Source of the DNA: Marivirga salinae
Lineage (GTDB): Bacteria; Bacteroidota; Bacteroidia; Cytophagales; Cyclobacteriaceae
Assembly: GCF_030503855.1 (NCBI RefSeq)
Contig: NZ_CP129971.1
Coordinates: 2,053,501 to 2,117,500 of the forward strand
Length of the DNA stretch: 64,000 nucleotides
Direction of reading: 5' to 3'
The notes below the pieces were generated by a model. That model searched no databases and had not been told where the DNA came from. It saw only the letters and a list, made by a program, of their open reading frames with translations. The stretch's first letter is position 1. Every line of letters begins with the position of its first letter. A program made the position numbers and the translations under genes. Positions 44,701 through 62,392 of the stretch are shown here, piece after piece.

Positions 44701-45777
44701 ATGAGGAAAATACTATTCCTTTTTCTTTTTCTAGCGCTATCCATCGAGATAAGTGCACAAGTTTCCAAGCCTAAATATGCCAATGAATTTTTGGCAATCG
44801 GAGTAGGGGCAAGGGCTTTTGCTTTGGGCGGTGCTTCTGTAGCTTCTGTTGAAGGGGCTTCTGCCGGATATTGGAATCCTGCGAAACTCTCAAGTCTGGA
44901 AACTGACCACTCATTGGATCTGATGCATGCAGAATATTTTGCCGGCATTGCTGCCTATGATTATGTGGGCTTTGCTACTTCAATTGATGAAGATAGTAAA
45001 ATGGGTTTTTCCATGATCAGGTTTGGTGTAGATGATATCCCGGATACTCGATTTATCTATGATGCCAATGGAGCCTTGAATTATGATAATATCAGATTTT
45101 TCTCCGCTGCTGATTATGCCTTTCAATTTTCTTACGCTCGTGATTTAAAGTTTTTAGAAGGCTTATCTTTCGGTGCAAATGCAAAAGTGATTCATCGAAC
45201 GGTAGGTGAATTTGCCAAAGCATGGGGTTTTGGCTTTGATTTGGGTGCAGCTTACAAATGGAAGAATTTGGATGTGGCTTTAGTGGCTCGTGATGTCACG
45301 GGAACTTTTACCACTTGGTATCATAATGTAACTTTGATAGAAGATATTTATACGCAAACCAATAATAAAATCCCCGAAAATACGACTGAAATGGCTGTTC
45401 CGCGATTAGTGTTTGGAACGGCTTATACTCAGGAATTACCCTACAAATTCTCCATAATGGGGGAGGTAAATTTCGATGCTACCTTTGATGGCCCGCGGAA
45501 TACATATATTAGTGAAGAGAAATTCTCCATTGATCCACGTGGAGGAGTAGAATTGGCTTATGATAAAATGGCCTTTCTCAGATTTGGCGGTAATAACCTT
45601 CAAAAGATCAAGAATTTTAATGGAACTGAAAGATGGAATGGTCAGGCAAGTATTGGTGCTGGTTTTCGATATAAAATCCTGCAAATTGATTATGCTTTCA
45701 CTGACTTAGGCGATTATTCTGAATCACTCTATTCTCATGTTTTTACTTTGATTTTTAATTGGGATGCTAAAGAATAA
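44701..45777 (+). CDS. porV2: Type IX secretion-associated PorV2-like outer-membrane protein
   Basis: 358 residues with signal peptide (ends ISAQ). It begins 'YANEFLAIGVGARAFALGGA' and 'GASAGYWNPAKLS', the PorV/PorQ/LptO signature, and continues as a 14-strand-type barrel ending 'YSHVFTLIFNWD'. PorV shuttles T9SS cargo to the PorU sortase. This paralogue is encoded directly before a PorU-like gene with a 14-bp overlap, as in other Cytophagales porV2-porU2 pairs. Cargo is not known. Confidence 0.87.
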   Translation: MRKILFLFLFLALSIEISAQVSKPKYANEFLAIGVGARAFALGGASVASVEGASAGYWNPAKLSSLETDHSLDLMHAEYFAGIAAYDYVGFATSIDEDSKMGFSMIRFGVDDIPDTRFIYDANGALNYDNIRFFSAADYAFQFSYARDLKFLEGLSFGANAKVIHRTVGEFAKAWGFGFDLGAAYKWKNLDVALVARDVTGTFTTWYHNVTLIEDIYTQTNNKIPENTTEMAVPRLVFGTAYTQELPYKFSIMGEVNFDATFDGPRNTYISEEKFSIDPRGGVELAYDKMAFLRFGGNNLQKIKNFNGTERWNGQASIGAGFRYKILQIDYAFTDLGDYSESLYSHVFTLIFNWDAKE

Positions 45778-48700: not shown

Positions 48701-50764
48701 AGAGATGGAGAACTTGATGAATGGACCATTTCAAATTTCACCTACAGTAGTTCCGCCCAACAAGGATGGCAGCAGAATTCTGATGACCAATTTTTATTAA
48801 ATAGCATAGAAGGAATTACAATCGGGGAGACTTGGAGTTTTGAGGAAAATACTTTTAATCTAACAGTTGAAGCCCCAGGAAATAGTGGAATTGACGATAT
48901 CAGCATTAGAATAAATGGAAATCAATATGCCACATCAGGTAATCAAACAGGACCTTGTAAGATCAATACTTTGAATTTAGTAGCCTTTGACAAATCTTCT
49001 GGAGTACCTTATTATATTCTTTCAAATGGTGGATTTGATGTTTTGGATCCACTTTTATGCGGTATTAGACCACAAGTCATCAACCAAATTAGAAATAACC
49101 AATTATCACAACCTGAGACCTATTTCAAGAAATATTTTGATGAATTGCCAGATGGTGATATTGTACTTATGACTTCTTATGACAGCGTGGCTTGGAATAT
49201 TTTAAGAGCCAATAACAGAGCAGAATTACTTGATCTTGGTGCCTCAGCTAGTGTCATAGACAATCTTCAAAATGGAGATCCTTATATATTATTGGGCAGA
49301 AAAGGATTGGGCGCGGCAAATGGAATAGAAGTTACCGCTACTCAAACTCCTAAAAGCGAGCAGACCATTTCGCTAGATAAGGTAGTGGAAGCTCGATTTG
49401 AATCAGGTTCTATTATTTCAAAAACGATTGGACCGGTTAAAGAATGGATTCAGTTGGATGCTGAATTTGCTGATGTGGAGGCTTCAGATGATATAAGACT
49501 GGATGTCTTTGGAATTGATAGCCTTAATAATCAAACTTTATTGTTCTCTGATGCCGTACTTCCACTGGATATTTCGGCAATTGATGTAAATCAATATCCA
49601 CAATTACGATTGAGGTTAACTGTTAGCGACCCTGATAATTTAAGTCCTGCAAAACTTGCCACTTGGAAAGTAAATTTCAGAGAAGTACCGGATGCAGTTT
49701 TGCTTCCTGCTGAAACTGCCGGAAAGGCAAGTACAGAATTGGCGGAAGGAGAGAAATTCAATAAATCATTTCGAGTGGTTAATGTTACACCTAATAATTT
49801 TGACGAGCCAATTCCTTATATACGCCAAGTATTCAATAGAAATGACAGGGTTTTCCATAATGAAAATTATACCTTAACTCCTTTGCCAGCGGATTCTGAT
49901 ACCACTTTTTCAATCGAAGTGGATACCAGAGGCAAGGTGGGAGAGAATGATTTAACATTAAACCTCAATCCATATTCAAATTATAATGAAAAGAAATTGA
50001 CCAATAATGTGATTTCTTATCAAAAGCTTTTTGAAGTTAAGAAGGATTCATTGCCTCCTTTTGTGGAGGTGACTTTCGATGGAATTTCCATTTTAGATGG
50101 CGATATAGTATCTCCTCGACCATATATCCAAATAAAATTGAAGGATGAAAATACTTTAATTAATAAAACCGATACCACAGGAATAGAAATTCAATTGCGA
50201 AGAGATTGTGAGGAATGTGTGAGTGAAAGAATAAATTTCTCCAATTCGAATATTGAGTGGTTACCCGCCACGGATGAGAGTCCATTCACGGTAAACTACC
50301 AGCCGAATGCCTTAGAAGACGGAAACTATCAACTGAGGGTGCAAGCAACAGATGCGAGTGAAAACACAGCCGGAGAGGAGCCTTATAAAGTGAGGTTTGA
50401 AGTGATCAATGCTTCCACCATCACTAATTTTTATCCTTATCCTAATCCCTTTTCTACCAGTACTCGCTTTGTATTTACTCTAACCGGAACTGATTTACCA
50501 CAGGAAATTAAAATTCAAATCTTGACTGTTACGGGTAGAGTAGTAAGAGAAATTTTGCAAGATGAAATTGGTCCCATCCACATAGGAAATAATATCACCG
50601 ATTATGCATGGGATGGCAAGGATGAATTCGGAGATAGATTAGCCAATGGAGTTTACCTCTACAGAGTTCTAGTCCGGAAAGACGGAGCCTTTATGGAACA
50701 ACGAGCTACCGCAGGAGATAGAGCCTTTACCGAAGGCTATGGGAAGTTGTATATTCTGAGGTGA
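45764..50764 (+). CDS. porU2: Type IX secretion sortase-like C25 peptidase, PorU2
   Basis: 1666 residues. Signal peptide (to ~22), N-terminal beta domain (~25-400), gingipain-type C25 caspase-fold domain (~410-780) with catalytic His633 in 'FFGHSGPN' and Cys667 in 'LINGCNAGSF', followed by CARDB/Ig-like beta domains, then a C-terminal region ending with 'YPYPNPFSTSTRFVFTLTG' and 'WDGKDEFGDRLANGVYLYRV', a T9SS C-terminal-domain (FlgD-like) sorting signal. PorU cleaves such signals from cargo and attaches the cargo to lipid. Partner gene porV2 overlaps its start. Both catalytic residues are present, so it is likely active. Confidence 0.88.
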   Translation: MLKNKIFTTILTIILSVHYVFSQDPQSWINFNQSYYKISLESTAAYELDYNDLIEAGVPISSIDARSLQIFHRGQEIAIRVIGQNDGRLDEGDVIQFLAKRNDGTSDTPLYKNPDHQPHQYFNLFTDESAYFLTWKNDGTNGKRIQEQNIINNTNNLAAENSVEKEILRLFTANADRGQRYSPQNEVYNSAFDLGEGWTGSAFTNPSNFSITDLDKAARSELPPTLEILIQGRNMRQHQTEVLVGPNENSLRSLGTVNFKEYEYEIFSGDLEWTDIANSGDLVLRLVPQAEGVDRISVSYIKVNFQMEPDLNNEAGGKLTLNPNPNGSSYVQFLNTNSTARLYRTDNFNEPVLLRTNRIGSEINTVVQNTVNGVELYLQNQNFLTPSIEKVNFRDFSNFNPDYVILSHPELSNPSGDYTNPVKAYAAYRNSEAGGGYDTLVVDINRIYNQFNYGEISPLAVYRFTQYLVANTKAEMVFIIGKGVNWHHNFYRRNDLPNQDLYNEFVPTAGSPGSDILFGFDLEENNRAAISFGRINAHNSQNVADYLDKIKEMEAKPFDDLRRKHFLNLSGGVSFSEVNRFLGYINDFARYAESPYIGGDYSNLTKETTQVVEFINVADQVNQGLNLITFFGHSGPNTADIDIGRVSDENLGYNNKGKYPFILINGCNAGSFYRLQKNETPFGEDWVNTPEKGSTGVLAHVYLGFPNELKRYSDLFYANAYGDSVMIDQPLGLVHQKTINDYLANFGTNPAPLYMSQAQQMNLLCDPAYKLFPAGKTDYAISDEDLEVVSVDGQPIDALTPEFGVDVIIRNYGITNADSIEILVKRTLPNNEMIVQDTQKVAAIKYQDTVRVNIYNDLPESFGQNIFEVIIDPAGKIPEIKDENNIATINYFLTLGTTLNLYPYDEGLSDQQIISLTAQSVDLLSDERDFLFELDTSIKFNSPYLKTQNIRAKVIAKWETNLLPNENQAYFWRTKFTNPRDGELDEWTISNFTYSSSAQQGWQQNSDDQFLLNSIEGITIGETWSFEENTFNLTVEAPGNSGIDDISIRINGNQYATSGNQTGPCKINTLNLVAFDKSSGVPYYILSNGGFDVLDPLLCGIRPQVINQIRNNQLSQPETYFKKYFDELPDGDIVLMTSYDSVAWNILRANNRAELLDLGASASVIDNLQNGDPYILLGRKGLGAANGIEVTATQTPKSEQTISLDKVVEARFESGSIISKTIGPVKEWIQLDAEFADVEASDDIRLDVFGIDSLNNQTLLFSDAVLPLDISAIDVNQYPQLRLRLTVSDPDNLSPAKLATWKVNFREVPDAVLLPAETAGKASTELAEGEKFNKSFRVVNVTPNNFDEPIPYIRQVFNRNDRVFHNENYTLTPLPADSDTTFSIEVDTRGKVGENDLTLNLNPYSNYNEKKLTNNVISYQKLFEVKKDSLPPFVEVTFDGISILDGDIVSPRPYIQIKLKDENTLINKTDTTGIEIQLRRDCEECVSERINFSNSNIEWLPATDESPFTVNYQPNALEDGNYQLRVQATDASENTAGEEPYKVRFEVINASTITNFYPYPNPFSTSTRFVFTLTGTDLPQEIKIQILTVTGRVVREILQDEIGPIHIGNNITDYAWDGKDEFGDRLANGVYLYRVLVRKDGAFMEQRATAGDRAFTEGYGKLYILR

Positions 50765-50874: not shown

Positions 50875-50909
50875 GTAGAATTAAACGTTTATTATACGTG
50901 TAATTCTAC
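50875..50909. terminator. Hairpin after porU2
   Basis: GTAGAATT (50875-50882) pairs with AATTCTAC (50902-50909). There is further partial pairing inside and no T-run. It lies between porU2 and the first cassette boundary and may terminate porU2. Confidence 0.35.
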
Positions 50910-51054
50910 GGATAATGCCAATTGATTGAGTTTAAGTGGTTAAAATGGGTTTTTTATTAACTATTAATTCAGTAGATTGCCTGACATAAGGTATATATAA
51001 TCACCGGGGGGTGACTATATTCAATTGTTAGCTCTCATTCAGAAAATCATCAAT

Positions 51055-52107
51055 ATGCCAGGAATGACAAAAGAAGAAGGAATTAATCAAGTCTATGGTG
51101 GAGGAGGACATGTGGTTATCTTAGGAGCAGGAGCAAGTATTGCTTCGACCTATCGAAATGCTGAAAGAAATGGTAAAAGACTTCCATCAATGGATAATTT
51201 CGTTGACTTGGTTGGACTTCATGAAATAATTGAAAAAGTACCTGATAATCTTCGAGCCGATAATTTTGAAAAATTGTATACTAATCTTCATTCGGAAAAT
51301 CCCGACTCTGAAATACTAAGAGCAGTTGAACAGCGGATTCAAGATTACTTTGGAAACATGGAATTGCCTGATGAACCGACAATTTATGATTACATGGTTT
51401 TGTCATTGAGAGGGAAAGACTTGATAGCTACTTTTAACTGGGATCCTTTTTTATATCAAGCATGGGTAAGGAATAGAAAGTTTACTGATGACTTGCCCCA
51501 CCTTTCATTTTTACATGGAAACGTTGCCATTGGCTACAGCAAAGAAGATAAAAGATGCGGCCCCGTTGGTTACCAAGCAAGACAAGATGGAGGTGAATTC
51601 GAACCTACTAAACTCTTATATCCGGTAGAACAAAAAAATTATACAAATGACGAATTCATCAATATTGAATGGGAACGGATGAAGTATTGGTTGAGCAAAG
51701 AGAGAGGGACTGTTCGTGCTACCATTTTTGGATATGGTGCTCCAGTTTCTGACATAGAAGCTGTATCTTTATTGAATAATGCATGGGGAACTCCTGATGA
51801 TCGATCAATGGAACAATTTGAAATCATTGATATAACCTCAGAAGAAGAATTAAGGAATCGTTGGAATGGATTTATACATTCTCATCATTATGATGTTACT
51901 GACAATTATTTCGGCTCTTCATTGGCTTATAATCCTCGAAGAACAAGTGAGAGCTATTTTAGTCACTATGAACCTTTAACCCCTGCAGAAGCTTTTAGAA
52001 GTTCAAATCCAATTCCACAAAACTTTAAGACTCTTGATGAATTATGGAAATGGCACGAACCATTAATTGAAGCAGAGTTAAAAAATGAAAATGAAAACGA
52101 GAGCTAA
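51055..52107 (+). CDS. SIR2-like domain protein (cassette 1)
   Basis: 350 residues from the ATG at 51055. A TTG at 51025 is in frame but straddles the cassette boundary at 51027/51028, so it is not preferred. Rossmann-type NAD-binding start 'HVVILGAGASIASTYRNA' (GAGAS), 'LIATFNWDPFLYQA' (the N-x-D motif, N at ~127) and 'FLHGN' (catalytic-type His ~153) follow the order of SIR2-like NADase families used in several anti-phage systems. The C-terminal part (~200-350) is unassigned. It stands alone, without a TIR, Ago or HerA partner. Defence role is inference from the family. Confidence 0.7.
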   Translation: MPGMTKEEGINQVYGGGGHVVILGAGASIASTYRNAERNGKRLPSMDNFVDLVGLHEIIEKVPDNLRADNFEKLYTNLHSENPDSEILRAVEQRIQDYFGNMELPDEPTIYDYMVLSLRGKDLIATFNWDPFLYQAWVRNRKFTDDLPHLSFLHGNVAIGYSKEDKRCGPVGYQARQDGGEFEPTKLLYPVEQKNYTNDEFINIEWERMKYWLSKERGTVRATIFGYGAPVSDIEAVSLLNNAWGTPDDRSMEQFEIIDITSEEELRNRWNGFIHSHHYDVTDNYFGSSLAYNPRRTSESYFSHYEPLTPAEAFRSSNPIPQNFKTLDELWKWHEPLIEAELKNENENES

Positions 52108-52230
52108 CACTATATAAGCGTAATGCGGTCTGAACGGCTAAAATTGAGCATTATGTCTCCAATAAACTTTGCGGTAGGTGGACAATGAATTGCTGCGAAA
52201 CCCGCACTACGCTTATACTTAACGTTATGC
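52101..52230 (+). repeat. attC site 1 (130 bp)
   Basis: Opens GAGCTAAC (overlapping the SIR2-like stop codon) and ends GTTATGC. Arms TATAAGCGTAATGCGG and CCGCACTACGCTTATA pair with one mismatch. The opening is the reverse complement of GTTAGCTC at 51027-51034, the start of cassette 1. Confidence 0.85.
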
Positions 52231-52281
52231 ACAATTACCAACTAGCTCTCATATAAGTATTGAAAATAAACTACCCTTCAA

Positions 52282-53133
52282 ATGAGTAAGAAGAAAGAGA
52301 CTTCAATTTCAGAATTAATAATTTTTGGTTCGATGCAATTATTAATATCCGTTATACTTCTATTTAATGGATTCACTTACATAACTGATCATTTCGTCAA
52401 TGATGGTCAAATCGAAAATGGTTCTACAAAGCAAAAAGGCTTGTTAGCGTTTATGTCTTTATTAGAAAAAGGATGGTGGAAATATTTAATAGTCTTAATA
52501 TTTGGCACGATTGGATTTTTGATGCTAAAAGAGGCAAGAAATAAGCTGAGCAAGTCATCAAAAAGTAACAACTTGAATCCAAAAACTAAAATAAATAATC
52601 TGCCAAAAGAAAAATTTATGACTGTTGATATAGAAAGTCAAAAGGAAGGATATAAAGAAATAGTAAGGCTATGCTCATCTAATACAAATAGAGAAGAGTT
52701 GATTAATTTCATAGAATCCTTAAAAAACTATAATGGAGATAAAAACTATTACAATACATTAAATTATGTAATGGAACATTTTGACAACAATTCTATACAC
52801 TTGATTATGGCTCTTGATTGGAAACAGGAAATCACTGATTTAAAGTGGAGAATTGAATCAGCACTAAAAAGTAATTTCCGAGTAACAGCAGACTTACCCG
52901 ATCCATCAAAATATGGAGAAGACAAAGCTGTTTCCGATAAAAACGTTTTTATTGATTACAATAATTCAATAAATAGAGAAGGATTTGAGCTTTCATTTGT
53001 TGACACAGATTCAGATGAATATGTAATAATCGTCAATAAACTTCAAGATTCTACAAAAATTGCCACAGCAATCGATAAAATTGGATATGAACGCTTATCG
53101 GCTGATTCTCATAAAATTAACGGGGCTAAATAA
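52282..53133 (+). CDS. Two-TM hypothetical protein (cassette 2, first gene)
   Basis: 283 residues. TM helices at ~12-32 and ~64-84, a basic linker (90-115), then a soluble domain ('YKEIVRLCSSNTNREELINF', 'LDWKQEITDLKWRIESALK', 'VDTDSDEYVIIVNKLQD') that I cannot assign to a family with confidence. It starts 52 bp after the attC1 R' box, giving room for a leader. The next gene begins one base after its stop codon, so this cassette is bicistronic, which is unusual for integron cassettes. Confidence 0.6.
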   Translation: MSKKKETSISELIIFGSMQLLISVILLFNGFTYITDHFVNDGQIENGSTKQKGLLAFMSLLEKGWWKYLIVLIFGTIGFLMLKEARNKLSKSSKSNNLNPKTKINNLPKEKFMTVDIESQKEGYKEIVRLCSSNTNREELINFIESLKNYNGDKNYYNTLNYVMEHFDNNSIHLIMALDWKQEITDLKWRIESALKSNFRVTADLPDPSKYGEDKAVSDKNVFIDYNNSINREGFELSFVDTDSDEYVIIVNKLQDSTKIATAIDKIGYERLSADSHKINGAK

Positions 53134-53134
53134 A

Positions 53135-53710
53135 ATGAAGTACTTTATCACCATAGCATTAGCCTGCTTAATAACAGCTTATCAAACCCCAGACGACTGG
53201 ACAGGTCAATGGTACTCACCTAATGGTCTAATTAAAGTTGAGTTAAATACAAATAATTCTTATAGTCTGCACCATATAGAAGGTACTGAAAGTGGGACTT
53301 GGGCAAAGCGCTCAGATACAATTATTCTCAGTGATTCAACAATACTTCAAATAGATTCATCAAACCTTCTTTTAAGTGGTAACAAATTATCTAAAGAAAA
53401 ACCTCAAACCTCTGTTCCTCACAATACCAATTTAAAAGGACTAAATTTCATATGGACTTTCGAATCGGAAGGAATACAAATAGACACTGTTTCATTTCGC
53501 GATAGTTCATATTACTCATCATTTAATGACCGAAGTTATCAATACAGATTAATTTCATTTAATGGACTTCTTTTTTTTACACACAACAATTTATCCAACA
53601 TCGGTGACAGATACTATTTAGTACATACTCTGAATAAAAAAGAATTGATTTTAGACTTCTATGTTTATGACACTAAAAAGCATATAAAAACAGTATTAAG
53701 GAGATTATAA
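53135..53710 (+). CDS. Exported hypothetical protein (cassette 2, second gene)
   Basis: 191 residues from the ATG at 53135, directly after the preceding stop (TAA A ATG). An upstream start at 53060 would overlap by 74 bp and is less plausible. Signal peptide 'YFITIALACLITAYQ'. The mature part is beta-rich ('WTGQWYSPNGLIKVELNTNN ... GTESGTWAKRSDTIILSDS'), like lipocalin-type or copper-resistance-like small periplasmic sandwiches. Not assigned. Confidence 0.6.
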   Translation: MKYFITIALACLITAYQTPDDWTGQWYSPNGLIKVELNTNNSYSLHHIEGTESGTWAKRSDTIILSDSTILQIDSSNLLLSGNKLSKEKPQTSVPHNTNLKGLNFIWTFESEGIQIDTVSFRDSSYYSSFNDRSYQYRLISFNGLLFFTHNNLSNIGDRYYLVHTLNKKELILDFYVYDTKKHIKTVLRRL

Positions 53711-53712
53711 AA

Positions 53713-53928
53713 GTGCATAACAATACCTAAAAATGCATTTGCTCACTGCTTTTAGCAAAGTAATTAAGTAAATCGCCACAAAGCCAAACATTTAATTTTA
53801 TTAAGATAGTTGGCAGACAAAGTGATCCTTGCTTTATACAACTCCTAAATTGTAGTTATGATTTGGCTTTGCTACTTTAGTGCTTCGTCAGCTAAGTGTG
53901 GCAAACGCATTTTAGCTTGGCGTTGTAC
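53713..53928 (+). repeat. attC site 2 (216 bp)
   Basis: Opens GTGCATAAC, exact reverse complement of the cassette 2 start GTTATGCAC (52224), and ends GTTGTAC. Outer arms AAAATGCATTTGCT / GCAAACGCATTTT pair. Closely related to attC 7 throughout, including the long central loop. Confidence 0.85.
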
Positions 53929-53939
53929 CCAATTAAAAA

Positions 53940-54476
53940 ATGAATAAAACCATATTAAAAAACATTCTTGCATTAATAAGTCTTAGTGGACTTGGACTGG
54001 TGATGTCAATTCTGGGTCTCAAGATGCTAATTGATAACCAGACGAGAAATCTAGACGACACACACAAATTGACAGGGACTATTGAATTAACTCAAATTGT
54101 AACTGATAATAAAAAGGTAGGAGCTGTACCATTTACCTACACTGACCAAGATTATTTTGGAATTAAATTAAAAGAACATGACAAGTTGTTTGGAACCTTT
54201 AACCCTAAGCAGTCCTATTATGAATTACAGAAACAGTTAAACCAAGGGAAACAAATAACAATATTTTACTACGACTCCTCTGATAAAAGCCCAACAAATA
54301 ATGTTTATCAAATAGAATCTAACGGACAGATAATTGTAAATCATTCTGACTATCAAAAAAACCATTCAATAGCAGCAATTGCAATCATTTGCTTTGGACT
54401 TCTTTGTTTGGGAATGTTAATATGGATTTTAAAAACCAAGAATATAAAAGAAAACTGGGCACAACATTCTGTATAA
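53940..54476 (+). CDS. Two-TM hypothetical protein (cassette 3)
   Basis: 178 residues. TM1 ~8-30 ('ILALISLSGLGLVMSILGL') and TM2 ~142-163 ('IAAIAIICFGLLCLGMLIW') flank an extracytoplasmic beta-rich domain of ~105 residues. The layout resembles DUF3592-like proteins but the similarity is loose. It starts 12 bp after the attC2 R' box. The coding end runs into the R'' box of attC3. Confidence 0.6.
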   Translation: MNKTILKNILALISLSGLGLVMSILGLKMLIDNQTRNLDDTHKLTGTIELTQIVTDNKKVGAVPFTYTDQDYFGIKLKEHDKLFGTFNPKQSYYELQKQLNQGKQITIFYYDSSDKSPTNNVYQIESNGQIIVNHSDYQKNHSIAAIAIICFGLLCLGMLIWILKTKNIKENWAQHSV

Positions 54477-54653
54477 ATCATGGCTGTAAGTAGGTTATTG
54501 TGACTTCGGCTCTTTGTAGATAGCCCGTCAATCTGCAGGATTGATTTATTGGGTAAGAATTAATTTAATAAGCCAATCCTGCGGATTGCCTCGGTAGTTA
54601 ACGCAAATTTTTATACTTTTAATCAGCCACGAATTTATACAGTGGCGTTGGCA
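54457..54653 (+). repeat. attC site 3 (197 bp)
   Basis: Opens GGGCACAAC (one mismatch to the reverse complement of the cassette 3 start GTTGTACCC at 53922) and ends GTTGGCA. Arms CTGTATAAATCATGGCTG and CAGCCACGAATTTATACAG pair. Same family as attC 5 and attC 8, with an extra ~45 bp in the loop. Confidence 0.85.
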
Positions 54654-54675
54654 TCAATAAAATAATTGCAATAAA

Positions 54676-55290
54676 ATGACACTGAGAAATTTGATTATAT
54701 TTCTACTGATTATTACTTCTTGCAATAACAAAAATTCTGCGACAGAGAACTCCAAAGGGAAAGCAACTAAACATGCTCAGAAAGTTGAACCTGTAAATAT
54801 AGAGAAAAAGGAAGAAGAATCGGGAATTGAACCAAGCGAGCAAGAACAGAATGAAATCTATTCCAAGGAATCATTAAATAAAGCCGATTCTGCAACTTTA
54901 GACTCTTTAAGAACATCTTTGCCTTTATCATGGGAAAGATTTGGAATAGAAAACAAAGACACAGTCTCCTACGATTTTTGCGGAGCATCCAACCCTCAAT
55001 TCTCATTAAATAACGACTTAACCGCAATAACTATTAGTATAGGAAACGAACTACATGAGAAATTTCAAATTGAAGAAATTTTTTATAATGACTCTATCTA
55101 CCTGTTTAGCTTTAAAGAGAAAAAAATGGGGTTAGAAAAATGCATTCTACTCATAAAAGATAAAAGTCGTCAAATAGGCAAATTATTAATTTATGATGCA
55201 AATCCTGAAGACAGCTACTCATATTTGCCTAAAACAATCCTTTCAGAAAAAAGACGAATAGTCTATGACTGTGACTCAGTGGAAGAATAG
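54676..55290 (+). CDS. Hypothetical lipoprotein (cassette 4)
   Basis: 204 residues. Lipobox 'LLIITSC' at ~16, then a long acidic/lysine-rich low-complexity linker (20-70) and a compact domain with three cysteines ('SYDFCGASNPQF', 'LEKCILLIK', 'VYDCDSVEE'). No family recognised. Single-gene cassette bounded by attC 3 and attC 4. Confidence 0.6.
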   Translation: MTLRNLIIFLLIITSCNNKNSATENSKGKATKHAQKVEPVNIEKKEEESGIEPSEQEQNEIYSKESLNKADSATLDSLRTSLPLSWERFGIENKDTVSYDFCGASNPQFSLNNDLTAITISIGNELHEKFQIEEIFYNDSIYLFSFKEKKMGLEKCILLIKDKSRQIGKLLIYDANPEDSYSYLPKTILSEKRRIVYDCDSVEE

Positions 55291-55293
55291 ACT

Positions 55294-55500
55294 GATGCCA
55301 ACACTATGTAAAAACCATGCGCTTCAGCAGTTTCAGGCAATCATATTAGTAAATTCCCGCAATTTTTGGCAATCAGTGTAAAATGTTAAGTCAAACTATT
55401 GCAGGCAACAAAATGAAGCCATTGGCAACAAAATAAAAATTGCTATCTTCATTTCCTTAATTAAATGTGGCGCACGGATTTTTACACGCGCCCGTTGTAC
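55294..55500 (+). repeat. attC site 4 (207 bp)
   Basis: Opens GATGCCAAC, exact reverse complement of the cassette 4 start GTTGGCATC (54647), and ends GTTGTAC. Arms TGTAAAAACCATGCGC and GCGCACGGATTTTTACA pair. The sequence is unlike the other sites. Confidence 0.85.
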
Positions 55501-55523
55501 ACAAGCGTAAACACGGATCAGCA

Positions 55524-55937
55524 TTGATAAGAAAGATACTAGTTGGAATTTTATTACTTGCAATTATTGCTGTAATCGGATTTTTTGCTTTTATGGCAAA
55601 TTTCGAGGTATTTGACGAACCAATAGAAACGGAGTTAAAAGTGGAATGTGATTACGAAGGATTACGGAAAGTGAAAATGACCGAAATGACTGGAAATGCA
55701 ACTCTCAATAGTTCAATCCATGTTTATGCCACTACATGCGAATACGATGAAAGTGATGAACATGAATCAATCTTTGTTGCAAGCTCTGGATTTTTAAAAC
55801 CAAAAGATGTGAACTTTGAATGGAAAAGCTTTGACACCTTGACAATCAGATACAATAAAAAGCTTGAGGTTTTCAAACAAAAAGCAAAATCGGAATCTGT
55901 AAATCCCAGTATAATTATTGAGTACATCGAGGAATAG
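55524..55937 (+). CDS. Single-TM hypothetical protein (cassette 5)
   Basis: About 138 residues if the TTG at 55524 starts translation ('LIRKILVGILLLAIIAVIGF'). An in-frame GTG at 55467 lies inside the preceding attC site, which cannot be part of this gene's own cassette (boundary at 55494/55495). TM helix at the N-terminus, then a small extracytoplasmic domain ('VKMTEMTGNATLNSSIHVYA') with two cysteines. No family recognised. Start codon uncertain. Confidence 0.5.
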   Translation: MIRKILVGILLLAIIAVIGFFAFMANFEVFDEPIETELKVECDYEGLRKVKMTEMTGNATLNSSIHVYATTCEYDESDEHESIFVASSGFLKPKDVNFEWKSFDTLTIRYNKKLEVFKQKAKSESVNPSIIIEYIEE

Positions 55938-55944
55938 AAAGCCA

Positions 55945-56096
55945 GTGTACAACATCCTGTATAAATCATGGCTGTTAGTAGGTTATTGTAGCTTCGGCTC
56001 ATTGTAGAAAGCCTGGCAATCCGCAGGATTGCCTCGGTAGTTAACGCAAATTTTTATACTTTTAATCAGCCACGAATTTATACAGTGGCGTTGTGT
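55945..56096 (+). repeat. attC site 5 (152 bp)
   Basis: Opens GTGTACAAC, exact reverse complement of the cassette 5 start GTTGTACAC (55494), and ends GTTGTGT. Arms CCTGTATAAATCATGGCTG and CAGCCACGAATTTATACAG. Same family as attC 3 and 8. Confidence 0.85.
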
Positions 56097-56114
56097 GGCA
56101 TAAAATAAAACAAA

Positions 56115-56696
56115 ATGGATAGATTATTAAAAACAGGTGGACTTCAAACATTTCTAATATTATTCTCACCTTTTCTCTTTATTGTAATTCTAATGTTTGG
56201 AATGACTGGTTCTGGGATTTTTAATAATAACCTATTCATGTTTGCTGGATTTTTTTACGTTTATCCTCAGATGTTCATTTTAACATATTGGCCTTATTAT
56301 GTTTCTAATAAGATAAACGACCAACTGGACGAAAAAGAAAACTTAAAAGGATTAAACACCAGATTTAAGATAGCTAAGATTATTATAATAGGTTGCCTAA
56401 TTGCTGGACTTGTAAATATAGTAGCAATGTATTCCGGAGCATCAGAATCAATAATGCAAGCACTGATGATAGTTTCACTCCCTTTTAATATTGGACAAAT
56501 ATTCATATTGATTAATCTGTTAATAGGGTTCTATACCTTATCTAAAATGATTGAATTAAAAATATCTGGCACAAATAGTTCAGGTAACACATTTGTATTA
56601 TTCTTCTTCATGCCGTTTACAATAGGTATAATTCAAAGGAAAATACGAACCATTTTTGATGAAAATTATAAAACGACCACACAACAAGGTGTATGA
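56115..56696 (+). CDS. Four-TM hypothetical protein (cassette 6)
   Basis: 193 residues with TM helices at ~11-31, ~38-60, ~90-110 and ~118-140 and a short hydrophobic segment near 155-172. The charged loop after TM2 ('NKINDQLDEKENLKGLNTRF') and cytosolic end suggest an inner-membrane protein. No family recognised. Its stop codon lies inside the attC6 R'' box region. Confidence 0.6.
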   Translation: MDRLLKTGGLQTFLILFSPFLFIVILMFGMTGSGIFNNNLFMFAGFFYVYPQMFILTYWPYYVSNKINDQLDEKENLKGLNTRFKIAKIIIIGCLIAGLVNIVAMYSGASESIMQALMIVSLPFNIGQIFILINLLIGFYTLSKMIELKISGTNSSGNTFVLFFFMPFTIGIIQRKIRTIFDENYKTTTQQGV

Positions 56697-56738
56697 TGCA
56701 TACCCTTCGGGATACGCACCATACACAGAACGTTAGAG
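56678..56738 (+). repeat. attC site 6 (61 bp)
   Basis: Opens CCACACAAC, exact reverse complement of the cassette 6 start GTTGTGTGG (56090), and ends GTTAGAG. Arms GTGTATGATGCATACCC and GGGATACGCACCATACAC pair around a small loop. The size is that of a classical 59-base element. Confidence 0.9.
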
Positions 56739-56757
56739 ACAATTAGTCCCAACTAAA

Positions 56758-57240
56758 ATGCAGTCGATAATAGACATAGATAAAGAAAGTTTTAAAACAC
56801 AATTAATTGAGTTAAAGAAAAACCTCAGAAAGGACTCTTTTGGATTCATCAAAGATTTCAACATAAATTTCAATAATGTAGAAATGGTAGAAGATACTTT
56901 TAAGGTTACTCGGAATGCAAATATGCTAAACCCATTTAGAGGTACTGGACAAATTATTGGACAACTGAATGAGTCAAATAAATCCGAAACAATCATAGAC
57001 TATATAGTAAAACCAGAAATTAGCCTAACTCAATATTATATTTTCTTATCGTTGTTCTTTGCGGCTTGGTTGGCATATTCTATTTATTTAGGAGACTTGT
57101 TATTATCTGCAATTGGATTAGTAGCAACAGGACTAATTTTCTTATTTATTTATCTTCTCAATAGATTCCAGATAAATAGTCTAAACAATTATTTTCAGAA
57201 AGTTCTGAACCAAATAAAAACAGGCTCTAACATTCACTAA
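56758..57240 (+). CDS. Two-TM hypothetical protein (cassette 7)
   Basis: 160 residues. The soluble N-terminal part (1-90, 'KDFNINFNNVEMVEDTFKVT') precedes two adjacent TM helices (~97-140) and a short tail. No family recognised. It starts 19 bp after the attC6 R' box and ends inside attC7. Confidence 0.6.
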   Translation: MQSIIDIDKESFKTQLIELKKNLRKDSFGFIKDFNINFNNVEMVEDTFKVTRNANMLNPFRGTGQIIGQLNESNKSETIIDYIVKPEISLTQYYIFLSLFFAAWLAYSIYLGDLLLSAIGLVATGLIFLFIYLLNRFQINSLNNYFQKVLNQIKTGSNIH

Positions 57241-57442
57241 AAATGCATTTGCTTACTGCATCTAGCAAAGTGAAGCGGTAAAACTCCACAAAGCCAAACT
57301 GATGATTTCATTTAGATTTATGGCAAGCATTCAGCTTGGTTTACTTCTTTTCTCTTTCAATTATTGTGGTTATGGTTTGGCTTCGCTACTTTAGTATTTC
57401 ATCAGCGAAGTGTAGCAAACGCATTTTAGCTTCGCGTTAGGT
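57223..57442 (+). repeat. attC site 7 (220 bp)
   Basis: Opens GGCTCTAAC (one mismatch to the reverse complement of the cassette 7 start GTTAGAGAC at 56732) and ends GTTAGGT. Arms and loop resemble attC 2 (AAAAATGCATTTGCT ... GCAAACGCATTTTAGCTT), showing two cassettes with the same site family. Confidence 0.85.
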
Positions 57443-57449
57443 TTTATTT

Positions 57450-58088
57450 ATGAGCCAGAAATTAGAGAAAAATATCACCAAAGTATTTCATGGGGCTTTA
57501 TTAGTATCCTTCCTTACTATTGCTATTCCAATAGTTTTTGCTCTTATAACTAATTACAATCAACCAACTGTAATCATCTGGTACATCGGCTACGCAAACC
57601 TTTTTGTGCTTTGGCCCTTGATTATAATATCTCTCATTGGATCGGTTATTCTACACTTCAAATATCATGGCTTATCTAGAGGAACAGAGAAATCCTCAGT
57701 AAGAGTATTAAGTGCGATTTTGGCAGTAGCGATAGTTTACCTGGGAACTAATGAACTTAAATTCCAAAACAACCAATTGGATGTGACTTTTAAAAACAAC
57801 TCATCTGAAATTATTAAGCATATTAGGTTGTTTGGTAGAGGTGCACTCACTGAACTTGATTCACTTGCACCCTTTTCTGATACAACTGTAATATTCAGAG
57901 GTAAATCAATTCTTAGAAAGATTGATAACGACTATGAAAATGAAGTAACTCTTCTTTACTACACCGATTCAACACATTTCAGACAACCAATCCTTCAAGG
58001 CTTTGGAAGATGGAGAGTATTTAATGGGCCATTTCAACTTAATTTCTATGGTCCTGATTCTGTTGAATTAAACTACTTGAAAAAATGA
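57450..58088 (+). CDS. Three-TM hypothetical protein (cassette 8)
   Basis: 212 residues. TM helices ~18-38, ~46-70 and ~88-105, then an extracytoplasmic domain of ~105 residues ('LDVTFKNNSSEIIKHIRLFG', 'FSDTTVIFRGKSIL'). It starts just 8 bp after the attC7 boundary. No family recognised. Confidence 0.6.
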   Translation: MSQKLEKNITKVFHGALLVSFLTIAIPIVFALITNYNQPTVIIWYIGYANLFVLWPLIIISLIGSVILHFKYHGLSRGTEKSSVRVLSAILAVAIVYLGTNELKFQNNQLDVTFKNNSSEIIKHIRLFGRGALTELDSLAPFSDTTVIFRGKSILRKIDNDYENEVTLLYYTDSTHFRQPILQGFGRWRVFNGPFQLNFYGPDSVELNYLKK

Positions 58089-58089
58089 C

Positions 58090-58242
58090 AAAACCTAACA
58101 TTCTGTATAAATCATGGCTATTAGTAGGTTATTGATACTTCAGTTCTTCATAGAGAGCCCGTCAATCCTGCGGATTGCCTCGGTAGTTAATTGAAATTTT
58201 ATTACTTTTAATCAGCCACGAATTTATAAAGTGGCGTTGTGT
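58090..58242 (+). repeat. attC site 8 (153 bp)
   Basis: Opens AAAACCTAAC, exact reverse complement of the cassette 8 start GTTAGGTTTT (57436), and ends GTTGTGT. Arms TCTGTATAAATCATGGCT and AGCCACGAATTTATAAAG. Same family as attC 3 and 5. Confidence 0.85.
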
Positions 58243-58266
58243 GTAACCTAAAATATTTTCAGAATT

Positions 58267-58956
58267 ATGAAAAAAATTATATGTGTTTTTCTTCTGACAA
58301 TAGTAATATTCTCTTGTAATACTAATGAGGATATAAATCTAGGTACACCAACCACGATTACAGGAAGTGTTAAAGATATTTACAACAATGAAAAAGTCTC
58401 AAACTATAAAATAGTTTTGAAAAAAACATATTACTGTGGAGGAGGGTGGAGTTTTGGTGGGGATGGTATTTGTTCTGAAGAAATTTTAGAGATAGAATCT
58501 GATTTGAATGGTTATTTTGAGTTTGAATTCAACTATTTAATAGAAGACCCTGAAAATGAACGTTACTTTATAAGCAGTAACTATATTAATTACCCTTACA
58601 ATGTTCATAACCAAACAGGAGAAATACAAAGGGGAGAAATAAATAAAATTGATATTGAAGTTTGGAAACCTATCAAAGTAACTCTGAACTTAACTTTAAA
58701 AAATAATCATTCACCTCCATTAATATCTGAAATAAGACAGGATAATGGAAATAAATCTATTTCAGAATTTACATACAGTAAAGATACTACAAGAGAAATA
58801 GGATTATTTATTGAACCTCAACAAGAATCTTCATTAATATTTAGATATAATGAAGATTATTCTAATGGCGGACTGCATCAAATGATCGGCTTAGAATTCA
58901 AATCTTCACTTAATGATACAACTATATATTCAACTGTTGATTGTAATACTTTTTAG
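58267..58956 (+). CDS. Hypothetical lipoprotein with beta-sandwich start (cassette 9)
   Basis: 229 residues. Lipobox 'VIFSC' at ~17. Residues 28-125 ('TTITGSVKDIYNNEKVSNYK', 'DLNGYFEFEFNY') look like a carboxypeptidase-regulatory-like sandwich. The second half is also beta-rich and unassigned. Starts 25 bp after the attC8 boundary. Confidence 0.62.
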   Translation: MKKIICVFLLTIVIFSCNTNEDINLGTPTTITGSVKDIYNNEKVSNYKIVLKKTYYCGGGWSFGGDGICSEEILEIESDLNGYFEFEFNYLIEDPENERYFISSNYINYPYNVHNQTGEIQRGEINKIDIEVWKPIKVTLNLTLKNNHSPPLISEIRQDNGNKSISEFTYSKDTTREIGLFIEPQQESSLIFRYNEDYSNGGLHQMIGLEFKSSLNDTTIYSTVDCNTF

Positions 58957-59038
58957 ATGTTTATAAACTGCACTTAGATTGACTGAAAGACTAAATATCA
59001 GACCCTGAATAGAATAGAGATTAACTAATTGAAAAGGC

Positions 59039-59171
59039 TACACACAACACGAGGCTAAAAACAATGGCGATGTACAGGTAATTAAAAATTTCTCGCTTTT
59101 TATTACCTTTATTTGTGACAGCTAATGAAGTGGTTTAAATCCGCCACAGTTTTTTAGCCCAGTCGTTGGGC
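59039..59171 (+). repeat. attC site 9 (133 bp)
   Basis: Opens TACACACAAC, exact reverse complement of the cassette 9 start GTTGTGTGTA (58236), and ends GTTGGGC. Arms GGCTAAAAACAATGGCG and CCGCCACAGTTTTTTAGCC pair with mismatches. This site and the leader after it fill most of the 310-bp gap. Confidence 0.82.
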
Positions 59172-59266
59172 ATAACACCCACGCATTAAAGAGTAAAAAT
59201 AAAAACTGCAGATATCAGAAAATCTGACATTTATTATTTTACTTGAATTATAGAAATCTGTTTTAA

Positions 59267-60079
59267 ATGAATTTACATAGGTCAATCGGCTATACTTCTG
59301 ACTGGTATCACACGTTCTTATTAAGCCTAATATTGGCAACAACGATTGTAGTCGTTCTAATTTTTCTTCAACCATTTGATATTTACACGAATCAAATAGA
59401 GTATAAAAACATCAAGCTGGTTGGTTATGGTATTTGTATCATCCTACCAATATTATTGATTCATGTTTTAGAAGAGTTTTGGTATAGATTCACACTTGGA
59501 AAATGGCATATTTATCAAGAGCTAGTAATCTTGGTTTTGGGATTTTTATTGATTTCAAGTACTGCCTATTTCTATAATGTTTTAGTTGTCAATGACCTTA
59601 ATATTAAACTGAATCATATGCTGCAATGGTTCACAAACTTCGGTTTACCCTTTGTCCCTATTTTTATTCCATTTTGGGTCTATCTTCGATTAAGGTTTAG
59701 TAAAATTATTGTACAACCAGACATTGATAAAAAGGAAAAGACAATTTCGATAGAAGGGTATAACCAAAATGAAGTAGTAGAATTCCTGGAAAAAGATTTT
59801 CTTATGGCAAGAGCACAATCAAATTATGTGGACATTTACTACATAAAAAATGAATTGCCTAAAAAAGAAATAATCCGATCAAAATTTGTTGATATAAAAA
59901 ATAAAATTCTATCAGCAGAACAAGTCCATAGGTCATACTTAGTAAATCCTTTACAGATAAATCAGATATATGGAAATACCCGTAAAGGTTACATCAAGAT
60001 AACTAAATTGGAAGAAGAGGTTCCTGTATCACCAAAATACTTTTTAGGGATAAAAAAGTATCTGCAAAATCAACCTTAA
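59267..60079 (+). CDS. LytTR-domain transcriptional regulator with membrane domain (cassette 10)
   Basis: 270 residues. Four TM helices in the first 145 residues ('FLLSLILATTIVVVLIFLQP' ... 'FGLPFVPIFIPFWVYL'), a linker, then a LytTR DNA-binding domain at ~165-265 ('FLMARAQSNYVDIYYI', 'IIRSKFVDIKNKIL', 'VHRSYLVNPLQINQIYG'). No receiver domain. Such membrane-anchored LytTR regulators (LytTR regulatory-system type) sense at the membrane and act directly on DNA. It shares a cassette, or a pair of fused cassettes, with the aspartyl-protease-like gene that follows. Confidence 0.85.
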   Translation: MNLHRSIGYTSDWYHTFLLSLILATTIVVVLIFLQPFDIYTNQIEYKNIKLVGYGICIILPILLIHVLEEFWYRFTLGKWHIYQELVILVLGFLLISSTAYFYNVLVVNDLNIKLNHMLQWFTNFGLPFVPIFIPFWVYLRLRFSKIIVQPDIDKKEKTISIEGYNQNEVVEFLEKDFLMARAQSNYVDIYYIKNELPKKEIIRSKFVDIKNKILSAEQVHRSYLVNPLQINQIYGNTRKGYIKITKLEEEVPVSPKYFLGIKKYLQNQP

Positions 60080-60202
60080 AAGTCAAGCTGATTTCACAAC
60101 CTTCAAACTCATCCCAAAAGCTTCAAATCTGTCACTTAGTTTTTTTCATAAAGTAACTGCTCACGTTCTTTACCAGAATACTATTGTAATCTAATTAAAG
60201 AA

Positions 60203-61186
60203 ATGAACAAAAAACTTAAAAATTTATCACTGGCAGCAGTCATCATTCTTGGCCTTTTATTTACCAGCTGGAAGGTCTTTAACTATTATTGGAGAACCAA
60301 AAACACTGTAAGTACATTTAAGAATTTTAAAGAACCTAAAACCGTGAGCTATTCTAATATAAAGTGGGTTTCAGGATCATATGGAGATTTAAAAACGGAT
60401 ATAAGTTCCTTTTTCGTAAAGGTAAAGCTAAATGGTATTGATGATTCTTTCTATATGCAGTTTGATACTGGGACGTCTCAAAGTAAACTCTATGGTAAAA
60501 CTTTAAATGCCTTAAAATTAAAGTATCCTTCTTTTGAGTTCAAAAAAAGTCAGTCTGGTAATTATTGGTTAGAGTCTTCAACCTTATCAATAGGATCCGT
60601 TAGTCTCCAAGCAGACAATTTGTTGGTCTTATCCGAGCTCGGGAGTGCCGAAATAGATAGTTCATTTACGGTGCTAGGTACGATTGGTTATGATGCCATT
60701 TTTGGGAGGAAATTACTACTCGATTTCAAGAAAAATAAATTAGCCATTACAAATCATAACCTCAAAGAGCTAGAATATAAATTTAATGAAATTAAAGGCG
60801 CTAGTGTAAATCAATTCCCAATCTTATTCCCTGCAGAAGTTGATGGTGAGAATGTGCAGCTGACATACGATACAGGCTCTAGCATGTTTCCACTCATCGT
60901 AGATAATCAAAAACTGCAAAATTTAGAAAGCGCTGGATCGATAGATACGTTATGTTGCATAACTAGCTGGGGAAAATCTTATGATTTTTATAGAAGAAAG
61001 TTAAACACTGATATCACGGTAGGAAAATTAATTGAAGAGAAACCTTATGTGTACTCTTCAAATAGTATGTCTCCATATGATTTCTTTCCCAATTGGTTAA
61101 TGATGGGACTAGCAGGAAATAAAATGTTCTTAAATGAAGTGATTTTAATAGATACTGAGAATAATATTTTTGGAATAGGTGAATGA
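60203..61186 (+). CDS. Membrane-anchored aspartyl-protease-like protein with two DTG motifs
   Basis: 327 residues. N-terminal TM anchor (~9-30). Two aspartyl-protease signatures: 'MQFDTGTSQSKLYG' (~91-100) followed by 'LGTIGYDAIFGRKLLLDF', and 'LTYDTGSSMFPLIVD' (~222-230) followed by the hydrophobic 'MMGLAGNKMFLNEVILID'. Two D-T-G motifs in one chain suggest a bilobed, pepsin-like arrangement, whereas most bacterial retropepsin-like proteins have one and dimerise. Both aspartates are present. Periplasmic by topology; substrate unknown. Lies 123 bp after the LytTR gene. Confidence 0.7.
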   Translation: MNKKLKNLSLAAVIILGLLFTSWKVFNYYWRTKNTVSTFKNFKEPKTVSYSNIKWVSGSYGDLKTDISSFFVKVKLNGIDDSFYMQFDTGTSQSKLYGKTLNALKLKYPSFEFKKSQSGNYWLESSTLSIGSVSLQADNLLVLSELGSAEIDSSFTVLGTIGYDAIFGRKLLLDFKKNKLAITNHNLKELEYKFNEIKGASVNQFPILFPAEVDGENVQLTYDTGSSMFPLIVDNQKLQNLESAGSIDTLCCITSWGKSYDFYRRKLNTDITVGKLIEEKPYVYSSNSMSPYDFFPNWLMMGLAGNKMFLNEVILIDTENNIFGIGE

Positions 61187-61193
61187 TATAAAC

Positions 61194-61326
61194 TTTGCCA
61201 ACACTAAATATAGGTCATTAGGCAAATAGTGCTAAATTTCAAAATGATTACATTTAAGAAAATTTGTGCGGATTTGGTGGCTTGGAGCCTTGAAGAGCCC
61301 AAAGCCCTATATTCTTAATGTTGTAG
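61194..61326 (+). repeat. attC site 10 (133 bp)
   Basis: Opens TTTGCCAAC and ends GTTGTAG. The opening matches the reverse complement of the cassette 10 start GTTGGGCAT only partly (ATGCCCAAC expected), so either cassette 10 drifted or an internal site was lost between 60080 and 60202. Arms AACACTAAATATAGG and CCTATATTCTTAATGTT pair approximately. Confidence 0.7.
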
Positions 61327-61355
61327 CCAATAGGGGTACTGTAAAAAAACAGTAA

Positions 61356-62150
61356 ATGAACAAAACTATATTTGAGATTACCAAAATGGACTGTCCTTCG
61401 GAAGAAAACCTAATCCGAATGAAACTGGAAGGAATTTCGAGTGTTGCGAATTTGGACTTTGACATTCCTAATCGAAAATTGACTGTTTTTCACAGAGGAG
61501 AAATTGACCAAATCGAAAAATTCGTTCTCGAATTGAATTTAGGCGGAAAGAAAATTTCAACAGAACAAACCAATCAAACAGAATTTAAAGAAAATACAAA
61601 CCAGAGAAAACTACTTTGGATAGTACTTGGAATCAATTTTTCCTTTTTCCTTATTGAAATGACATCTGGACTAATTTCAAAATCAATGGGATTAGTTGCT
61701 GACAGTTTGGATATGCTCGCAGACTCGTTTGTTTATGGGATCAGTCTGTTTGCGGTTGGCGGAACTTTGTCAAGAAAAAAGCGGATAGCCAAGCTTGCTG
61801 GTTATTTTCAAATAACGCTTGCGATTATCGGATTTGTAGAAGTATTAAGAAGGTTTTTTGGAGCAGAAAAACTACCTGACTTTTCGACAATGATAGTTGT
61901 CTCGATTTTCGCACTTATCGCAAATGGAATTTGTTTGTATTTGCTGCAAAATTCAAAGAGTAAGGACGAAGCTCATATGAAAGCAAGTATGATTTTCACT
62001 TCAAATGATGTGGTTATCAATCTGGGAGTAATAACAGCTGGAGTTTTGGTAAATTGGTTAAACTCTAATAAGCCTGACTTGATAATCGGGACAATCGTTT
62101 TTGGTTTGGTAATTCAAGGAGCAATAAGAATATTAAAACTTGGAAAATGA
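61356..62150 (+). CDS. Cation transporter (CDF-like) with N-terminal metal-associated domain (cassette 11)
   Basis: 264 residues. N-terminal HMA-like domain (1-68, 'ITKMDCPSEENLIRMKL') with one cysteine, then six TM helices (~85-260): 'SFFLIEMTSGLISKSMGLVA', 'DSLDMLADSFVYGISLFAVG' (CDF metal-site D-x3-D in 'DSLDMLAD'), and a second site 'TSNDVVINLGVITAG'. Probable Zn2+/Co2+/Fe2+ efflux of the COG1230-like type. Full-length cytosolic CTD is absent, as is common for this shorter subgroup. The only transporter in the array. Confidence 0.85.
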   Translation: MNKTIFEITKMDCPSEENLIRMKLEGISSVANLDFDIPNRKLTVFHRGEIDQIEKFVLELNLGGKKISTEQTNQTEFKENTNQRKLLWIVLGINFSFFLIEMTSGLISKSMGLVADSLDMLADSFVYGISLFAVGGTLSRKKRIAKLAGYFQITLAIIGFVEVLRRFFGAEKLPDFSTMIVVSIFALIANGICLYLLQNSKSKDEAHMKASMIFTSNDVVINLGVITAGVLVNWLNSNKPDLIIGTIVFGLVIQGAIRILKLGK

Positions 62151-62161
62151 AAAAAATCACT

Positions 62162-62392
62162 GTCTACAACATTATGTGTTATGAAAAGCCATAAGAATTC
62201 CAGCCAACCGTTTGTTCTATAAATTTACACTATTTATTCTAAACTGCTACTGCTCATACACGAGACCCTTAGCGGTAATGTAAGACAACGCGCAAAATCA
62301 ACATTTCACTAACAGACTAATCGAATTCAAAATAAGTTAATTCAAAAAAAAAAGTTGTATTTAGTTGTCGCGTATATTATATTTACGACAAC
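62162..62392 (+). repeat. Eroded attC site 11 and end of the array
   Basis: GTCTACAAC (62162-62170) matches the reverse complement of the cassette 11 start GTTGTAGCC with one mismatch, but no convincing R' box (GTTRRRY) with pairing arms follows. The array therefore ends in a truncated site. The 62171-62360 stretch shows no gene. A clear regulatory palindrome (62364-62392) follows. Confidence 0.6.
62364..62392. promoter_or_regulatory. GTTGTCG-N15-CGACAAC inverted repeat, MarR-type operator candidate
   Basis: Perfect 7-bp arms (GTTGTCG 62364-62370, CGACAAC 62386-62392), 16 bases before the ATG of the VOC gene. It is placed to be bound by the MarR regulator encoded two genes downstream. Confidence 0.55.

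Follow-up and report, generated by a model that had tools for sequence, protein, structure and literature searches.

The chromosome of Marivirga salinae (Bacteroidota; Cyclobacteriaceae), a single contig of 4,494,741 bases, carries an array of integron-type gene cassettes in the 64-kb stretch that we analyzed (bases 2,053,501–2,117,500, hereafter the window; coordinates refer to it unless marked otherwise). We propose, with a probability of roughly 0.84, that this genome holds at least five attI-headed arrays of mobile cassettes, and that these are most likely recombined in trans by one XerA-like tyrosine recombinase, encoded at 2.66 Mb, which is not an integron integrase of the IntI type. We call the system integron-like and run by a non-IntI integrase: because it works like an integron, while its recombinase lacks the IntI-specific insertion and falls outside the IntI clade and its attC sites have no fixed extrahelical base, we class it as a non-IntI variant. 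The arrays of the host genome are labeled A (2.66 Mb, with the integrase gene), B (the window array), C (4.38 Mb), D (0.38 Mb), and E (1.47 Mb); other loci carry L numbers and genomes carry G numbers.

The window array lies between a 1666-amino-acid (aa) open reading frame (ORF) at 45764–50764, assigned to porU2 in an earlier note made from the sequence, and a VOC-like ORF at 62408. The note had described eleven units at 51027–62170, and these are present, all on the plus strand and all starting with GTT; only ten are complete, however, since the last one is missing its closing half-site, and the element begins upstream of the first unit: 50875–51026 contains a palindrome, an attI-like hairpin and, between them, the last 16 bp of an integrase gene. 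A Phage_integrase search of the genome found no gene of this family within the window, and the description of an array in a Bacteroidota chromosome without an adjoining integrase gene holds. The array is nevertheless one of five with an attI-like head, and a candidate integrase with an array of its own lies 0.56 Mb away. The features of the element are as follows.

50875–50914, no strand: 40-bp palindrome, a copy of the one between the integrase gene and its divergent partner gene at array A
50974–50989, plus strand: exact copy of the last 16 bp of the integrase gene, including its stop codon
50994–51029, plus strand: attI-like hairpin ending at GTT, 94 per cent over 64 bp (50966–51029) to the site behind the integrase gene
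51027–52223, plus strand: cassette 1 with attC site; 360-aa ORF 51025–52107, no Pfam or PADLOC match
52224–53921, plus strand: cassette 2 with attC site; ORF 52282–53133 (DUF6630) and ORF 53135–53710
53922–54646, plus strand: cassette 3; 178-aa ORF; array C has the same sequence as its first cassette
54647–55493, plus strand: cassette 4 with attC site; 204-aa ORF
55494–56089, plus strand: cassette 5 with attC site; 156-aa ORF, listed from 55467
56090–56731, plus strand: cassette 6; 193-aa ORF; array A has the same sequence as its first cassette, behind the integrase gene
56732–57435, plus strand: cassette 7 with attC site; 160-aa ORF
57436–58235, plus strand: cassette 8; 212-aa ORF
58236–59164, plus strand: cassette 9 with attC site; 229-aa ORF
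59165–61319, plus strand: cassette 10, with decayed ends; ORF 59267–60079 (LytTR) and ORF 60203–61186
61320–62170, plus strand: unit 11, closing half of site missing; cation-efflux ORF 61356–62150

The start of each unit is the complement of its own end. All ten start/end pairs quoted in the earlier note are present: over nine bases, seven match exactly and three have a single mismatch. The unit at 59165, whose ends are decayed, is not among them. Across all eleven units, 61 of 66 non-fixed positions match between own start and own end, a score that is understated for the unit at 59165, whereas permuting the ends among the starts gave a mean of 24.9 matches (standard deviation 5.3, maximum 53), and none of 100,000 permutations reached the own-pair score. 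When the plus strand of the window was scanned for AAC...GTT palindromes with matching arms, a procedure that does not recover the unit 6 and unit 10 sites, 14 pairs were returned: eight are unit ends, one (56111–56240) is a chance pair inside the array, and five are elsewhere in the window. The terminal half-site of unit 11 (62162–62210) resembles one that ends an array C unit ahead of insertion sequences, and both are without a second half.

Two cassettes of the window recur elsewhere in the genome. Cassette 3 matches the first cassette of array C at 725 of 725 bp, and cassette 6 is 100 per cent identical to the first cassette of array A; in both cases, identity begins at GTT and ends at the next GTT or one base past it, and the second copy stands directly behind an attI-like hairpin. 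Because both cassettes are found unchanged, and cut at GTT, in other arrays, the cassettes move. By analogy with integrons, the first position behind attI is where a newcomer would be placed, and the duplicates found there would be the newest-looking cassettes. The proposal of past circular cassettes with integron-type logic is thus supported by both own-end pairing and GTT-bordered duplicates. More distant relatives of other units were also found: the protein of cassette 8 is matched at 94 per cent identity by the third unit of a further G005 array, cassette 10 is 74.5 per cent identical to a unit in Marivirga sericea, and unit 11 has one relative (82 per cent identical) 4.3 kb behind the integrase gene of the flavobacterium Xanthomarina sp. 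F2636L and a second (83 per cent) in G004. Two arrays of G004 (L235 and L240) share the same first cassette start behind attI.

The content of the locus also differs within the genus. porU2 is present in all nine other genomes, and behind it G005 and G004 have a palindrome- and attI-headed array with different cassettes, G001 has the palindrome followed by the end of the contig, and in six of the nine neither the palindrome/attI module nor a cassette chain was found. When 13 cassette ORFs of the window were sought behind porU2 in the nine genomes, none was found. The earlier note had named in advance an outcome that would speak against mobility, namely units always in the same order in related strains, and the nine genomes do not show it. 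Three genes to the right of the window array were likewise not found in the porU2 flanks of these genomes; the right end of the array is therefore not a conserved border.

A 70-bp query from the junction of integrase gene and array matched five places in the host genome, which are arrays A–E, and at all five the attI-like site is followed by GTT and cassettes. At A, the 40-bp palindrome is located between the integrase gene and its divergent neighbor; at B, C, and D it precedes the hairpin, and at E it is shortened. Modules of palindrome and attI were matched in eight of ten genus genomes, the host included. We also examined loci with relatives of the integrase from named genomes (the best 80 of 546 relatives, three of which, L133, L144, and L151, have titles that name other phyla). 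In 45 of 78 named loci, a hairpin stands behind the integrase stop codon, with a GTT within nine bases. Under a looser hairpin test (net 4), the whole set of 89 loci gave 54 positives versus 10 among 445 random upstream pieces, and under a strict test (net 7), 22 of 90 loci were positive versus 1 of 273 random pieces. As in classical integrons, attI adjoins the integrase gene at the point of cassette entry, and the cassettes are mobile and have GTT borders. Most likely, the single integrase of array A serves all five arrays in trans, a reading that is backed by the cassettes common to A, B, and C.

The Phage_integrase family has four matches in the host genome. Judged by eye, two are XerC/D-like and one is transposon-integrase-like. 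The fourth is a 386-aa tyrosine recombinase (genome positions 2,662,655–2,663,815, minus strand), and directly behind its gene come the hairpin and GTT and then an array of cassettes in the same orientation. A search for intI elsewhere in the genome, which the earlier note had advised, yielded no match to classical IntI at an E-value of 1e-60. Against NCBIfam profiles, the 386-aa recombinase scores 218 bits with XerA (cut-off 220) and 208.8 bits, in two pieces, with the integron integrase (cut-off 265), and its alignment to VchIntIA (2A3V) is interrupted at the IntI-specific insertion. The distance from the lysine hairpin to the HxxR motif is 58–61 residues in 88 of 91 relatives (three are without the motif) and 64 and 66 residues in two XerC/D-like proteins, versus 100 residues in 28 of 29 IntI proteins (one is without the motif). 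In a tree of 99 proteins, in which the midpoint root is arbitrary and the bootstrap is not fully settled, the 25 IntI sequences are separate with support of 100/99. The recombinase therefore has no IntI insertion, does not belong to the IntI clade, and does not reach the curated IntI cut-off.

The first 115 residues of the recombinase form an extra N-terminal domain, for which the predicted structure of a relative from M. sericea (mean predicted local distance difference test [pLDDT] score 81.9) gives the order beta-beta-alpha-beta-beta-alpha-beta. No convincing match to this domain was found among Pfam families and PDB sequences; weak matches (PDB E-values of 0.53 and 1.1, and scattered Pfam hits with a best E-value of 0.0076) were taken as chance. 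Taken as a whole, this predicted model is nearest to XerA and VchIntIA. The recombinase is XerA-like and not an IntI, and its catalytic role is suggested by its association with the arrays. Several relatives of the integrase, L032 and L034 among them, carry in-frame stops, which suggests repeated gene loss.

This association extends to relatives of the recombinase. In the 80 named loci, 102 attC-like palindromes were found in 276,752 bp downstream of the recombinase gene versus 13 in 703,940 bp upstream. A chain of two or more cassettes, each with a start that matches its own end, is present in 10 of the 16 downstream flanks of at least 9 kb and in 23 of the 37 of at least 2.5 kb, versus 0 of 63 upstream flanks. 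Our first sample of 21 integrase loci, including that of the host, has 11 loci with chains and 10 without; among 20 further loci from the host's class (profile scores of 350–577 bits), chains occur in 10, all of them among the 15 loci of at least 9 kb. As a control, chains of two were found in 4 of 56 other pieces, drawn from the loci's own flanks and from IntI-bearing genomes. Contigs end within 300 bp behind the integrase gene in 25 of the 80 named records and ahead of it in none, as would be expected if repeats were located behind it. A Rufibacter plasmid carries the gene too, annotated as a tyrosine-type recombinase, with a chain of two weaker units behind it; on a Chryseobacterium plasmid, the signal is ambiguous.

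Several points weigh against the recombinase being the enzyme of the arrays. Five of the ten chainless loci in the first sample are short (<5.5 kb), but the others (L058, L063, L068, L069, and L071) span 14–20 kb, and chains are missing from 6 of the 16 long downstream flanks of the named loci. The gene family also extends beyond the arrays: it is present in 196 of 395 sampled genomes of the host's class at an E-value of 1e-70, and some of these have no arrays. The recombinase is a candidate by association, and the sites could be substrates of XerC/D or of some other enzyme. Moreover, relatedness among the sites and among the loci means that the counts are not independent, and L062 and L110 are the same DNA.

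A gene for a 124-aa zinc-ribbon protein lies divergently 72–310 bp upstream of the integrase gene in 64 of the 80 named loci, and the gene is also present in 10 of the 11 array-bearing loci of the first sample; the host genome has one full copy. The predicted fold of the protein has a mean pLDDT of 92, and a comparison with PDB gave no match under an E-value of 0.001. The position of the gene next to the palindrome suggests a regulator, and the protein and the palindrome together may regulate the system.

We assembled a set of 157 distinct attC sites from 39 loci, which were selected by end pairing and arm similarity. Among them, GTTR is conserved in 154, a C before GTT in 156, an A after AAC in 152, a T at +7 in 147, and an A at +8 in 139. 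R″ and R′ are split between the cassette ends, and L boxes and spacers are present, as in classical integrons, but end pairing and arm similarity had been used in the selection. Inside the stem, an A in the left arm stands opposite a C in the right arm in 150 of 163 sites, while the mirror image occurs once and the next commonest mismatch 23 times; on the bottom strand, this A·C mismatch is a G·T pair. The arms have no insertions or deletions in 66 of the 163 sites, and elsewhere these occur at varied places; the fixed extrahelical base of classical attC stems was not found. Several sites share a long apical sequence and form repeat families.

When the sites are folded with their ends joined, as they would be in a circular cassette, the bottom strand folds better in 144 of 163; the sign is the same in 7 of 11 unrelated palindromes, a control that is too small. 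For five window sites folded as they occur in the chromosome (with DNA parameters), z-scores were −2.18, −4.27, −0.41, −4.51, and −2.32 for the bottom strand and −1.35, −3.17, −0.02, −2.81, and −2.73 for the top strand. Folding of the bottom strands had been put forward as a check on the integron interpretation, and its outcome is mixed: four of the five sites fall below shuffled sequences, but the differences between strands are small, the top strand is slightly better at 59041–59171, and the site at 58094–58241 is no better than shuffles on either strand. An Rfam search of the window at gathering scores returned no matches. Our own covariance model, R1, gave 11 matches up to an E-value of 10 over eight sources, all in the window (three sites), L005, L020, and L021. 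R1 matched neither a classical IntI array (L209) nor L006, L007, and L022; the model is insensitive to long sites, and L022, which is an array, counts as a miss. A genome-wide R1 search, in which 150 of 1061 candidates were scored, gave one match and is not informative.

As a yardstick for classical integrons, we examined 10 and then 20 IntI flanks from other classes; only L209 (in G103) has a long chain (nine), a few have two or three units, and the comparison is thus with one array. The system described here resembles classical IntI integrons in its circular-cassette logic, split R boxes, GTT borders, long imperfect palindromes, and first position by attI. AACA and CGTT are also present in L209 when it is read on the coding strand (all 14 of its ORFs of at least 120 aa are on the minus strand), so that these motifs are common to both systems and do not distinguish them, and the bottom strand is again the better folder in nine of nine L209 sites. 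The differences concern sites, enzyme, and layout. All nine printed L209 sites have one extra left-arm base at a fixed place, whereas the sites here have no fixed extrahelical base and show the A·C mismatch instead. The recombinase has no IntI insertion and does not group with the IntI proteins; its gene precedes the cassettes on the same strand, with attI behind its stop codon; attI is a hairpin with extra copies elsewhere; and the neighboring zinc-ribbon gene is divergent. By common definition, an integron integrase has the IntI insertion and its contacts to extrahelical attC bases, and surveys look for these features.

Clusters of attC sites without an integrase are known as CALINs. With at least two attC sites and no adjoining integrase gene, the window array falls under this definition; unlike a CALIN, it starts with its own attI, a palindrome, and a trace of the integrase gene. 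Archaeal XerA (5HXY, 4A8E) is nearest to the recombinase by both profile and predicted structure, but the recombinase has in addition the N-terminal domain and is linked to cassette arrays. Known attC-targeting elements of the IS110 family (IS1111-attC) sit inside attC sites. Arrays A, C, and D each contain one IS110-family copy (L005:9221–10279, L020:13113–14171, and L021:12805–13863), likewise inside attC, and all three copies are inserted at the same point, in the apical stem of one attC family.

The window array could instead be the remnant of a classical IntI integron, that is, an attC cluster left by a lost or foreign IntI. AACA, CGTT, and the R boxes are shared with the classical array, and IntI occurs in the phylum: 95 of 345 genomes match at an E-value of 1e-60, 93 of them over the cut-off, and 94 of the 95 are outside the host's class. 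The host genome itself has no such match, however; a XerA-like gene rather than IntI stands at the head of arrays in the host and in relatives; and the sites are without the fixed extra base found in all nine classical sites. We consider such a remnant unlikely.

It is very unlikely, in our assessment, that housekeeping XerC and XerD move the cassettes as dif-like modules and that the XerA-like gene is a passenger at the array head. By eye, two genes of the host look XerC/D-like, but dif sites are short, whereas the sites here form imperfect hairpins of considerable length in which the R boxes are split. The XerA-like gene, moreover, occupies the head of the array, where attI immediately follows its stop codon, and does not stand just anywhere among the cassettes. 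If the units were a family of small transposable repeats or hairpin elements that had inserted between genes, this would account for the long apical sequence that several sites have in common, yet it would leave the match of each unit's start to its own end unexplained, as well as duplicated units that border exactly at GTT and adjoin attI; this origin is scarcely credible.

Under recombination by the XerA-like enzyme, a cassette would fold on its bottom strand, which would be the substrate, and the recombinase would pair the R boxes and cut at GTT. Cassettes would be excised as circles between folded attC sites and joined to the GTT behind an attI hairpin, and the window array would be served in trans. 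The A·C mismatch may set the strand or the direction; the roles of the mismatch, the N-terminal domain, the palindrome, and the zinc-ribbon protein are guesses. The integron interpretation of the window array had the cassette and circle logic right and was incomplete with respect to the integrase, for which the same genome encodes a candidate that is not IntI.

More broadly, we see even odds that Bacteroidota have a second integron lineage, with XerA-like recombinases that lack the IntI insertion. In such a lineage, the N-terminal domain and the bottom-strand G·T wobble would replace the insertion and the extrahelical bases, attI would be a hairpin, one integrase would serve several dispersed arrays, and the zinc-ribbon protein, acting on the palindrome, would control both integrase and arrays. 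A cassette system without the IntI insertion or extrahelical bases would escape notice or be recorded as orphan attC clusters. It would offer a second case for asking what the capture of cassettes as folded single strands needs, it adds a pool of mobile cassettes in Bacteroidota, and it opens to testing whether integrons had a single origin or several.

With regard to cassette cargo, PADLOC gave no matches for six window ORFs. In array A, two ORFs (L005:1811–3043 and L005:8007–9065) match Pfam PF00144 (beta-lactamase superfamily serine hydrolases). One cassette of the same array (L005:13413–15811) encodes a helix-turn-helix regulator, a C5 DNA methyltransferase, and a NgoFVII-like nuclease, and is, as predicted from these genes, a type II restriction-modification system.

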